This document shows, piece after piece, positions 43,922-47,437 of a DNA stretch of 64,000 nt. The number at the start of each line of letters is the position of its first letter. Position 1 is the stretch's first letter. The notes under the pieces were generated by a model that saw only the letters and a list, made by a program, of their open reading frames with translations, ran no database searches and was not told where the DNA came from. Position numbers and translations under genes: made by a program. The stretch is from Aldrovandia affinis (lineage: Eukaryota > Chordata > Actinopteri > Notacanthiformes > Halosauridae). The DNA is taken from the NCBI GenBank assembly GCA_029706075.1, contig JAINUG010000004.1, forward strand, positions 70,001 through 134,000. The letters run 5' to 3'.

Positions 43922-44578
43922 TGTGGCGTCCCCAAGGGTTGGGCGACACTCACTGACCTTTCAGAGGGCGTAGGCAAGTGTAAGAACACTGAGGAGGCAG
44001 TAATATCAGCAGAAATTATGATTTATTAAACAAACAACACAAAACGCAGGGTGGGGTCTTTTGGGGAATACGAACACAAAGTCCACAATTCTTGTCTCTT
44101 TGTCGATGTCCGTTCCAAATCCGCAATCCAGGTCCAAGTTCCGTTGTCCAGTCCGTAATCCAATTCCAAGTAATCCAATCCAAACACAAAACAAACACAC
44201 TTTCAAAACTCTCTCTCTCTCTCTCAAAACTCTCTCCAAAAACTCTCTCCAAAAACTCTCCAAAAATACAAAAATACTCTCAAAAATACTCTCCAAAATA
44301 CTGGCTACTCTCAAAAATACTGGCTGGTCAATAGACACAGTTATCTTTTCTCTCTCTCACTCACCAACTCCTCACAACCACGTTCCTACTCCTCTTCCAA
44401 GAACAATGGGATCGAGTCCTTTAAATAGGCCTTGCAATGGCCTTCAGCTGGTCGTTTGCTCCCCATGCCTGACTTCGTTCAGGTGTTGCGGTGGCATGCT
44501 GGGAAATGTAGTGAAAATGGCTGCCATGTGTTGTAGGCCAGGCAGCCATTTCCTAGTGCAGCCCATCCGGCTGCCACA
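43922..44578 (-). repeat. LTR of the coiled-coil element (3' LTR by polarity)
   Basis: 657 bp, TGTGGC...GCCACA. On the minus strand it has a TATTTAAA box (44420-44427) and AATAAA (44022-44027) in the right order for U3-R-U5. The outer 270 bp match the other LTR without a difference I can see. Confidence 0.93.
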
Positions 44579-46201
44579 CACCCTCCTCCTCAGCTCTGAC
44601 CTTGGGAGGGCTGAGCGGCCTATTCCCAGCGGCCACCAGGAGGGTCCCCCTCTCCAGGTCCACTCAGGCAGTTTTCCACCCGGGTCAAACGTCCAGATCC
44701 CATCTCCATTCGCCTGAAAAAATGTCTGGCAGACATTAATGAGTGACGCAAGTTGCTCACCTTTTCTGCCACAAAATGGCCACCAGTGGGTACAGGCTCT
44801 GGGCTCCACGGACGGAGCGGTCACCGCTCCTGTTCTGGTCTTCACCAACGTTCCATGGCTCCACCAGTGCACGTGATGCAGCTTCATCATCTGGCGTCCT
44901 CTCTTGGGCCTTTTCCGCCACTGCCACGTTGCTTCCATGTGGTCAAGTGGGGTAACTGGGGAAAACACACTCTTCAGATGGTTAGCTTTATTCTTTACTT
45001 TATTTTTCATATTGGCATCTCCTTTCCACAGACGCTTCCCACGGTCCTTTCGTTTACAAGTCAGTCTATTTTGTTTCCCTTTTCTCTTCATGTGAGAGCT
45101 TCTGAACTCCCATTCTTTTCTCTGTCCGGTTAATGTTAGTGAGGGAGATGGACTTACCACGTCAGGAGATGGTCGGGTGCTCAAACAGGCCTCGGCCTTA
45201 ATTAGGAGGCCTTCCTCAACCCTCTGGTCCCCCCATAGCTCCTCTAGGCTCCCTTGAAGGTCCGGCAGGCTGAGTGGGACTGAGGACCATTGTCCCCACT
45301 CCAATGTCTGGTCATCCTCTCCTGCTGGCTCCATTGGCTGTGAGAACTCCACCTGTGTGCTAGCGTCTTGGGTGACAGGAACACACTTTACAAAGTCCAG
45401 CTCTTCACTCATCCCTTTCAGTCGGGCTTGTAGGTCCAGCACAGTCTCGGCTTGGACCTTCAGTACTTCCCGAAATGCATTTTCTGTGGCCCGCTGCTGG
45501 GCTTCCATCTCCGCCATTTTCCCCTGAAGCTGTGCGGTCTGCTCCAGCTGCAGCTTCTGGACTTGCTCCTGGTGCTCCAGCGCACTCTTCTCCGCCGTCT
45601 CATCCGCCTCTTTGAGTCTGCGCTCGAACCATCCCTTGGTGCCCTCCATGGACTGGATTTGAGCCTGCAGCTTCTCCACCGTCGGCTGTAGGCTCTCCAG
45701 CTCCCGAGTGCGGGCCTTCTCGTCACGGAGCTGTGAGCGGATCTCCTCCTCGGTGCGGTTCTTGTCCTCGTGCAGGCCGCGCAGCTCCTTCTCGTAGCGC
45801 GCCCGCACGCCCAGCACCTCCTTCTCGTGCTGCAGCCGCACGTCGCTCAGCTCCTCCTTGTGCCGCGACTTCTCCTGCGCCACGTCGATGGCCAGCTCGT
45901 CCAGCATGGCCTGGCGCTTGTCCGCCGTCTTCCTGGTCTCCTCCAGCTCCTGCTGGAGTTTGTCCTTCTCTTGGCCCAGTTCAGTCACCTGCTCCAGGAG
46001 CCGGCTGTTGGCGCGGTTCACCTCCTGCAGCTGGGAGCTGACGTCATCTCTCTGGGCCAGGAGCTTCTCCTGCTCGGTCTGCCTCTGCTGCAGCTCCATG
46101 TTCAGCGCCATTTCCTGCTCCACACTCTTCTCCAGCTGGGCCAGCTGCTCCCGCAGGGCGTTGGCCTCGACCTGGTGCGTATCCCTGCTCTCCTGCTCCA
46201 C
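44444..46201 (-). CDS. Coiled-coil ORF2, GRIPAP1 (GRASP-1)-like, captured host sequence
   Basis: The open frame of 585 codons actually extends upstream to about 46312; the marked start is a GTG with no special support. Up to about 45430 it encodes an unbroken coiled coil rich in Glu, Gln, Lys and Leu heptads. It includes NRANSRLLEQVTELGQEKDK, KEVLGVRARYEKELRGLHED and GTKGWFERRLKEAD. These match what I remember of the central part of GRIPAP1, a Rab4/GRIP1-associated endosomal coiled-coil protein. The homologous region is multi-exonic in vertebrates as I recall, yet here it has no intron, so capture through a spliced RNA is inferred. After 45430 the similarity stops. From about 45157 the composition becomes basic and then Trp-rich, probably an intron or non-coding frame, and the frame ends inside the LTR. 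Whether a protein is made is unknown. Confidence 0.65.
   Translation of the reverse strand: MEQESRDTHQVEANALREQLAQLEKSVEQEMALNMELQQRQTEQEKLLAQRDDVSSQLQEVNRANSRLLEQVTELGQEKDKLQQELEETRKTADKRQAMLDELAIDVAQEKSRHKEELSDVRLQHEKEVLGVRARYEKELRGLHEDKNRTEEEIRSQLRDEKARTRELESLQPTVEKLQAQIQSMEGTKGWFERRLKEADETAEKSALEHQEQVQKLQLEQTAQLQGKMAEMEAQQRATENAFREVLKVQAETVLDLQARLKGMSEELDFVKCVPVTQDASTQVEFSQPMEPAGEDDQTLEWGQWSSVPLSLPDLQGSLEELWGDQRVEEGLLIKAEACLSTRPSPDVVSPSPSLTLTGQRKEWEFRSSHMKRKGKQNRLTCKRKDRGKRLWKGDANMKNKVKNKANHLKSVFSPVTPLDHMEATWQWRKRPKRGRQMMKLHHVHWWSHGTLVKTRTGAVTAPSVEPRACTHWWPFCGRKGEQLASLINVCQTFFQANGDGIWTFDPGGKLPEWTWRGGPSWWPLGIGRSALPRSELRRRVCGSRMGCTRKWLPGLQHMAAIFTTFPSMPPQHLNEVRHGEQTTS
44581..44591 (-). promoter_or_regulatory. 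Polypurine tract
   Basis: On the minus strand GAGGAGGAGGG lies 2 nt upstream of the 3' LTR. This is the expected plus-strand primer site for LTR retroelements and supports the minus-strand polarity. Confidence 0.7.
44956..45157 (-). other. Candidate 202-bp intron inside ORF2
   Basis: On the minus strand GACGTG is followed by GTAAGTCC (donor, 45157-45150). TGTGTTTTCCCCAG (acceptor, ending 44956) precedes TTACCCCACTTGACC. The interval is AT-richer than the flanking coding part and its translation is atypically basic. Splicing would place a stop soon after the junction, ending the protein before the LTR. Confidence 0.4.
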
Positions 46202-46251
46202 TTGGCACCGGAGTTGCTCCGCCTCGGACGCATGGTTCTCCGCTGCTTTCC

Positions 46252-46692
46252 TTAGCTCTGCCTCCTTCTGGGCGAGCCTGGTCTGGGCATCCCCAAGGCC
46301 CTGGCATACTCATCTGTGGCCTGGTCCTGGGACTCCTGCATGTCCAGACAATGTCGCTGCTCATCCTCACGCATCTGGGTTAGGGTTCTCACCTGCTCTT
46401 TGAGCGCCAGGTTGTGGGACTCGACACGCCTCATCTCATCGCCATGGGACGCCTTCTCCTTTTCTATCTCCCCAGCCATGATTCTCACCACTCCCAGGGA
46501 GTCCATGTGGTGCTCCTCTCGCAACTTCATCATTGCCATCAGGTGGCGCTCCTCTGAGGTGCTCACCTCCAACTTTGCCTTGCACAGCTCAAGCTGGGCA
46601 CTCTGCTTCAGCTGTTGGACCTCACGGAGGGTGACACGCCATCGGTCCTCCACCATGGCTGCCCGTCTCTTCAGTCTCTGCATCTCTTCCAT
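46252..46692 (-). CDS. Coiled-coil ORF1 of the LTR element, origin unknown
   Basis: The first ATG downstream of the primer-binding site that starts a long frame is at 46692, beginning MEEMQRLKRRAAMVEDRW. It gives about 146 residues of coiled coil with many Met, Glu and Gln, and lies where gag would normally begin. I cannot assign it to a known Gag or host family. Its stop at 46252 follows a one-base frame offset near 46300: ORF2 is in the -1 frame and overlaps it by about 60 bp. The coiled-coil pattern continues across the offset, so one base lost or unread in the GGGG run would explain the split. A programmed -1 shift is possible, but no canonical slippery heptamer is present. Confidence 0.55.
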   Translation of the reverse strand: MEEMQRLKRRAAMVEDRWRVTLREVQQLKQSAQLELCKAKLEVSTSEERHLMAMMKLREEHHMDSLGVVRIMAGEIEKEKASHGDEMRRVESHNLALKEQVRTLTQMREDEQRHCLDMQESQDQATDEYARALGMPRPGSPRRRQS

Positions 46693-46764
46693 CGTGGAGT
46701 CTGTTGCACAAACCAAACAAAACCCCTGCTGCACTACCTCCTCTTGCCTATCTGTGCTGCCCTC

Positions 46765-46782
46765 TGCCCGCATTCTCCACCA
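46765..46782 (-). promoter_or_regulatory. Primer-binding site, tRNA-Ala(AGC)-like
   Basis: Two bases inside the 5' LTR the minus strand reads TGGTGGAGAATGCGGGCA. This is complementary over 18 nt to the 3' end, including CCA, of a vertebrate tRNA-Ala(AGC) as I remember it. It would prime minus-strand DNA synthesis. Confidence 0.65.
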
Positions 46783-46784
46783 TA

Positions 46785-47437
46785 TGTGGCGTCCCCAAGG
46801 GTTGGGCGACACTCACTGACCTTTCAGAGGGCGTAGGCAAGTGTAAGAACACTGAGGAGGCAGTAATATCAGCAGAAATTATGATTTATTAAACAAACAA
46901 CACAAAACGCAGGGTGGGGTCTTTTGGGGAATACGAACACAAAGTCCACAATTCTTGTCTCTTTGTCGATGTCCGTTCCAAATCCGCAATCCAGGTCCAA
47001 GTTCCGTTGTCCAGTCCGTAATCCAATTCCAAGTAATCCAATCCAAACACAAAACAAACACACAAAACAAACTCACTCTCTCAAAAACTCTCCAAAAACT
47101 CTCTCCAAAACTCTCTCCAAAAATACTCTCCAAAATCTCTCCAAAATACTCTCAACAAAAATACTCTCCAAAAATACTGGCTGGTCAATAGACTTCACAG
47201 TTATCTTTTCTCTCTCTCACTCACCAACTCCTCACAACCACGTTCCTACTCCTCTCTAAGAACAATGGGATCGAGTCCTTTAAATAGGCCTTGCAATGGC
47301 CTTCAGCTGGTCGTTTGCTCCCCATGCCTGACTTCGTTCAGGTGTTGCGGTGGCATGCTGGGAAATGTAGTGAAAATGGCTGCCATGTGTTGTAGGCCAG
47401 GCAGCCATTTCCTAGTGCAGCCCATCCGGCTGCCACA
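46785..47437 (-). repeat. LTR of the coiled-coil element (5' LTR by polarity)
   Basis: 653 bp with the same termini as its partner. TATTTAAA (47279-47286) and AATAAA (46885-46890) are on the minus strand, so transcription would start in this LTR and run toward lower coordinates through ORF1 and ORF2. Confidence 0.93.
47279..47286 (-). promoter_or_regulatory. TATA box of the active-side LTR
   Basis: TATTTAAA on the minus strand within CCTATTTAAAGGAC, placed about 150 bp from the upstream LTR edge and about 390 bp before AATAAA, a normal U3-to-R layout. Confidence 0.6.

Follow-up and report, generated by a model that had tools for sequence, protein, structure and literature searches.

A non-autonomous LTR retrotransposon family of Aldrovandia affinis with spliced GRIPAP1 sequence inside the element's own coiled-coil open reading frame

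The 64-kb stretch of Aldrovandia affinis DNA analysed here (the window; positions 70001-134000 of its contig in the 1.22-Gb assembly that was the genome searched) contains, at 43922-47437 on the minus strand, a complete, non-autonomous long terminal repeat (LTR) retrotransposon whose interior includes a segment of the host gene GRIPAP1. Paired-LTR alignment defines a 653-bp 5' LTR (46785-47437) and a 657-bp 3' LTR (43922-44578), both reading TGTGGC...GCCACA in the element sense and both, like every feature of the element given below, on the minus strand. The 5' LTR has TATTTAAAG at 47278-47286 and AATAAA at 46885-46890, and the 3' LTR has TATTTAAAG at 44419-44427 and AATAAA at 44022-44027. An exact 18-nt primer binding site (PBS), TGGTGGAGAATGCGGGCA (46765-46782), which we take to match the 3' end of vertebrate tRNA-Ala, forms an LTR-PBS junction that recurs genome-wide, a polypurine tract (PPT), GAGGAGGAGGGTG (44579-44591), abuts the 3' LTR, and an ATAC target duplication (43918-43921 and 47438-47441) flanks both element ends. 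TG...CA paired LTRs, PBS and PPT in one common orientation identify an LTR retrotransposon, as a first-pass annotation of the window had recognised from these same features. That annotation had also called the LTRs near-identical, which holds for substitutions (9 in 642 aligned bases) but not for gaps (26 gap positions in 12 gaps, many of them within a CTCTCCAAAA-type tract). The interior comprises an N-terminal open reading frame (ORF) part with the element's own coiled coil (46112-46692), the GRIPAP1 segment (45501-46111) and a 3' part (44592-45500); in the window copy, the N-terminal part is interrupted by a 1-bp frame break near 46295. No pol was found in this interior by frame translation or Pfam, so that the element is not an autonomous gag-pol element, and no pol-bearing partner element was found.

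The GRIPAP1 segment matches the host gene in protein and in DNA. The second half of the ORF, used as a protein query, matched GRIPAP1 of many fishes, with eels at 76-80% identity, and the A. affinis GRIPAP1 gene product (P0014, 882 residues); the matches listed (best 120 of 1602) all have E <= 2.1e-83 and are A. affinis predictions or, mostly, fish proteins named "GRIP1-associated protein 1". An intact host GRIPAP1 gene, with introns present, lies on C213, and interior bases 674-1284 match six of its exons at 93-97% DNA identity (exon stretches, with splice sites resolved, 686159-686248, 686677-686772, 687775-687987, 689098-689211, 689914-689991 and from 691250). The six exons are joined in the element, with five GT-AG host introns precisely missing, and the outer ends of the cargo both fall within host exons. 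The similarity to GRIPAP1 is far above coiled-coil background, and generic coiled-coil similarity as the source of the match is ruled out by the exon-by-exon DNA identity. Because the five introns are exactly absent, we consider it practically certain, on these alignments, that the cargo originated as captured spliced host GRIPAP1 mRNA, in line with the first-pass proposal that a non-autonomous element had captured a spliced transcript. The captured portion is smaller than the approximately 290 residues initially estimated: only approximately 204 codons (46111-45501) match, corresponding to codons 402-605 of 882, and the element thus does not hold a full-length, multi-exon GRIPAP1 gene. Across 35 interiors sampled from the genome (see below), cargo identity to the host gene is 94.8-96.7% (96.7% for the window copy). 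Synonymous divergence from the host is 0.09-0.13. All 8 outgroup proteins examined (eels, tarpons, bonefish) have E477 and A593, whereas D477 and T593 are found in the host and are also the commonest residues of the element, which places the capture in the Aldrovandia lineage, later than those changes. A predicted GRIPAP1 of Acipenser ruthenus (P0006, 978 aa) holds the same GRIPAP1 stretch in tandem, through local duplication or assembly artefact.

The host-like sequence is not, as had first been supposed, the element's only cargo; it sits inside an ORF that is the element's own and that, in relatives, has a CCHC knuckle ahead of the coiled coil. The open-frame parts on either side of it (46692-46112 and from 45500 on) have no match to GRIPAP1. 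The N-terminal part has 84% DNA identity to GRIPAP1-free relatives over interior positions 115-603, the approximately 25 residues directly before the cargo match neither these relatives nor GRIPAP1, and the 3' part, in which the frame is open in the window copy, is common to the GRIPAP1-free relatives and evolves like neutral sequence. The possibility that the N-terminal part came from a second host gene was considered and rejected: two protein searches, with candidates limited to approximately 371-1176 and 1155-3675 residues, gave 17 matches and 1 match, all of them A. affinis predictions, and the aligned end of the single match is itself an element copy. Searches of the element ORF, and also of predicted proteins, gave no Pfam model above cut-off and no convincing match in PDB.

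The design of the relatives is exemplified by locus L056. Its leader is that of the window type and is followed by a CCHC knuckle, CMCCLEYGHQPSEC, and by the same coiled coil (84% DNA identity); it has no GRIPAP1, its central coiled coil differs, and its 3' part is 72% identical to that of the window type. Three further GRIPAP1-free loci (L062, L063 and L064) have this design, and L061 is the L056 locus again. When the L056 CCHC region was searched against the genome, the best 150 of 1764 candidates scored all had E <= 6e-61, 112 of the 150 were without a stop, and open frames extended up to 882 residues. Other loci combine the two types of sequence: L060 has CCHC, coiled coil and GRIPAP1; L065 and L066 have the CCHC ORF joined to GRIPAP1 from approximately host codon 366, both with some of the GRIPAP1 sequence deleted internally without loss of frame, and the frame of L066 is open for 814 residues; and L067 is broken off after a short GRIPAP1 stretch. 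All five of L060-L064, and likewise L065 and L066, have the CCHC motif, as against 0 of 35 window-type interiors. The 5' junction reads GAGTGGAGCAGGTGGAGAG, where the relative has GTGGAGCAGGAG and the host GTCAGGAGCAGGTGGAG, with the bases GGAGCAGG in common; at the 3' junction, GAAGC is common to host (ATGGAAGCAGTG) and relative (AAAGAAGCCCAG). Microhomology at the cargo junctions is 5-8 nt. We conclude from these comparisons that GRIPAP1 sequence evidently replaced, in frame, the central coiled coil of the element's own CCHC/coiled-coil ORF, a putatively gag-like ORF.

The chimaera itself transposes, and is a mobile family present at hundreds of sites and active recently. An LTR query, for which the best 40 of 3914 first-look candidates were scored, yielded 41 matches, many of them paired and approximately 2.85 kb apart; 14 of the 16 stretches fetched around them are complete LTR-interior-LTR copies with cargo, the other two (L027 and L028) being incomplete through the choice of stretch ends and not counted among complete loci. 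A 5'-interior query gave matches that were all >= 98% (best 40 of 1363 candidates scored); 19 of the 20 stretches fetched are complete, and L041 is without a 3' end. In total, 33 of 36 fetched stretches are complete copies with cargo, and these provide 35 interiors, since L024 and L035 are LTR-interior-LTR-interior-LTR doubles, as inter-copy recombination would give. Target duplications of 4 bp flank 30 of the 33 complete loci (14/14 and 16/19 in the two sets), several of them uninformative because they are situated in AT repeats, and the LTR pairs of 14 loci (4/14 and 10/19) have zero substitutions, in a sample that leans to young copies because loci were picked by similarity to the window copy. 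These counts of copies with the same interior, separate duplications and unsubstituted LTR pairs bear out the earlier suggestion that the chimaera had been mobile recently. Across the whole genome, the LTR end plus PBS junction occurs at 919 sites and the spliced exon junction of the cargo at 241 sites (2 mismatches allowed for each), the window-type ORF start at 290 sites and an upstream spliced GRIPAP1 junction, without counterpart in the window type, at 45 sites (3 mismatches allowed for each); reversed-pattern controls gave 0 in every case. The count of 241 is an undercount, since four (L055, L057, L058 and L059) of five LTR-PBS sites chosen for having no listed cargo junction nearby still hold GRIPAP1 sequence, the fifth being L056. 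The 35 interiors have two different 3' ends, the others differing from the window type by approximately 8-15%, on a nearly identical 5' half, which points to recombination between subfamilies.

Comparison of the cargo with the host gene gives dN/dS of 0.11-0.29 (15 interiors), a figure that includes the host's own constraint, and the fixed differences between the host and all 35 interiors are 9 synonymous and 1 replacement. A host-independent test compared variants among the 35 interiors with rates from the 3' interior, with CpG sites kept apart. Relative to the neutral expectation, the ratio of replacement to synonymous variants (N/S) is 0.50 in the N-terminal part (P 0.021), 0.53 in the cargo (P 0.0012), and 0.54 in the whole ORF (P 9e-5); the other two frames of the cargo give 1.04 and 1.21, and the 3' part gives 0.99, a value partly built in because the 3' part also supplied the neutral rates. 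The first 15 interiors give 0.52 for the cargo (P 0.004) and a non-significant 0.62 for the N-terminal part alone (P 0.11). In copy-versus-copy comparison of these 15, pooled dN/dS is 0.36 (cargo), 0.59 (N-terminal part), 1.23 (immediately after the cargo) and 0.90 (3' part), and the CCHC region has a pN/pS of 0.45 over 8 loci (4 GRIPAP1-free, 4 chimaeric). Lower diversity of the 5' half was dropped as a sign of selection because copies with two different 3' ends share nearly the same 5' half, probably through recombination. These variant patterns show, by all appearances, an ORF under purifying selection and a 3' part that is not.

According to the reading that we favour, and that we hold, origin and role taken jointly, to be somewhat better than an even bet, the segment was captured by template switching and the GRIPAP1 rod has been retained as part of a gag-like protein. 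GRIPAP1 mRNA would have been co-packaged with element RNA in one particle, and the polymerase, during reverse transcription, would have jumped template at GGAGCAGG and returned at GAAGC. The first chimaera would have contained approximately host codons 366-605; later derivatives would have lost the CCHC end, altered the 5' coiled-coil stretch and retained codons 402-605, giving the window type. The GRIPAP1 rod would serve as oligomerising centre of the gag-like protein, helping element RNA into particles, and reverse transcriptase and integrase would be supplied by a partner element with similar LTRs. For LTR-mediated retrocopies, the route described in PMC5408686 is a switch of template, at microsimilarities, between host mRNA and packaged element RNA; it would fit here because there is microhomology at both ends and the breakpoints lie within exons. 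The role as oligomerising centre is suggested by the cargo's place, frame and constraint. The earlier speculation that coiled-coil cargo might replace Gag assembly accordingly stands somewhat better than before, since it is the centre of the gag-like coiled coil that GRIPAP1 replaces, without loss of frame, and since the ORF appears constrained; the role itself is still only a probable one.

Several observations weigh against a working role for the cargo and make it possible, though less probable than the reading just given, that the origin was the same and the cargo is a passenger, with the element moved in trans via its RNA signals and the GRIPAP1 sequence idle. Only 5 of 35 interiors (L013, L017, L036, L037 and L050) are stop-free from the leader through the cargo, and the 30 that are not include some with identical LTRs (L014, L020 and L023); broken frames in young copies suggest that the ORF is dispensable in cis, unless the breaks are assembly errors. 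The CCHC motif is gone from the window type. The term "gag-like" rests on the CCHC knuckle of the relatives, the ORF position and constraint, because no Pfam model matches, and the N/S test treats variants as independent. The ORF has 1 stop versus 6.4 expected (P 0.011), the cargo contributing 1 over 7041 codons and the N-terminal part none over 6727, but the 3' part is also short of stops (4 versus 12.2 expected, P 0.006), which muddies the stop test; the number of stops expected may be overestimated, or the 3' part may itself be partly coding. Against an idle cargo stand its reduced N/S, confined to the right frame, the near-absence of stops in cargo and N-terminal codons, and the distribution of the breaks, which recur at few short runs, as expected of assembly errors. 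In the first 14 interiors, with L013 as reference, the breaks are mainly 1-bp deletions, recurrent at few sites, and a G run is short in 5 of the 14, the window copy among them. This pattern would suit residual long-read errors in young repeats, the A. affinis genome having presumably been sequenced with long reads, but inherited breaks would fit also.

It is improbable that the cargo acts on the host, as a protein or an antisense or small RNA that disturbs GRIPAP1, or as a shield of the element, whose silencing would also silence an essential gene. The 96% identity to the intact host gene would suit such action, and the shielding idea has been described for captured genes in plants (PMC13317346); however, an effect exerted through RNA alone would not select against replacement changes more than against synonymous ones. 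That the interior is a normal host gene or lone retrocopy with flanking repeats by chance, for which there is nothing except the similarity itself, can be dismissed, since copies of this chimaera, bounded by the same ends, were found at 33 loci, of which 30 have 4-bp duplications, and the host gene, with introns, is elsewhere, on C213.

The reading of the GRIPAP1 rod as a retained part of a gag-like protein admits an extension that we regard as unlikely, although worth stating: that the middle of the protein is an exchangeable coiled-coil slot refilled from host mRNAs. GRIPAP1 is the provable case; earlier captures from further host genes with coiled coils could account for other central segments, for example the KSVEQEKAQNQELQ type of L060 and the QTTSAALLIEQRKNEELP type of L062. 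If the extension were true, a host endosomal rod would be doing the work of Gag assembly.

Most known cases in which LTR elements have captured spliced host mRNA are single retrocopies, elements of plants or retroviral oncogenes. Acutely transforming retroviruses, which are defective and helper-dependent and contain captured oncogenes, resemble the present family in that host coding sequence, already spliced, is joined in frame to an ORF of structural type; here, in contrast, no envelope or pol is seen, spread is within a genome, and the cargo is not a growth regulator. The TR-GAG elements of plants are non-autonomous LTR elements that encode a gag-type protein and no pol, and resemble the present family, with its putatively gag-like ORF and no pol; they differ in that here there is no recognised Gag domain, host sequence lies inside the ORF, and the genome is that of an animal. 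The system closest in kind is Bs1 of maize, an LTR element with transduced pieces of three plant genes (PMC13317346 and PMC5408686); both are LTR elements with coding segments of cellular genes, and both features of a Bs1-type element, spliced host coding sequence inside the element and transposition of the chimaera, are found here. The differences are that a single animal gene is involved here, in frame within the element's own CCHC/coiled-coil ORF, that GRIPAP1-free relatives and CCHC chimaeras persist in one vertebrate genome and, probably, that the chimaera occupies hundreds of sites. LTR-mediated retrocopies of metazoans (Tan et al. 2016, as summarised in PMC5408686) likewise consist of partial spliced mRNA joined to an LTR element at microsimilarities; on that summary, the present chimaera differs in that its two LTRs, its PBS and its PPT are retained and it has given rise to a mobile family. 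In open-access literature, searched by titles and abstract openings, no description of this element or of GRIPAP1 capture was found. One genome shows insert-free relatives, CCHC-bearing chimaeras, a high-copy derivative, readable junctions and the intact donor gene, which makes it directly testable whether captured host sequence can become a working part of a mobile element.

The family also matters for annotation, since pieces of the element occur in many A. affinis protein predictions in public databases, including fusions with unrelated domains. Seven such predictions (P0001, P0008, P0013, P0016, P0017, P0122 and P0126) fuse element pieces to other domains, among them doublecortin, methyltransferase, fibronectin III, plectin, GalNAc-transferase, MAP7 and CEP85. 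They are likely to be annotation artefacts; exonised pieces are possible.

Elsewhere in the window, translations inspected by eye indicate broken open frames resembling a Ty3/gypsy gag-pol remnant (23356-27237, plus strand), two open frames resembling a Tc1/mariner transposase (30487-31373, minus strand) and open frames resembling a LINE-type reverse transcriptase remnant (41530-42763, plus strand). Rfam gave three matches in the window, all outside the element: UnaL2 LINE 3' elements at 410-463 (plus strand, 73.1 bits) and 50681-50733 (minus strand, 59.1 bits), and a 5S rRNA-like copy at 8879-8995 (minus strand, 43.3 bits versus a cut-off of 38), which could be a 5S-derived SINE or a pseudogene. 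A minisatellite with a 49-bp unit in 9.9 copies lies at 63168-63652.

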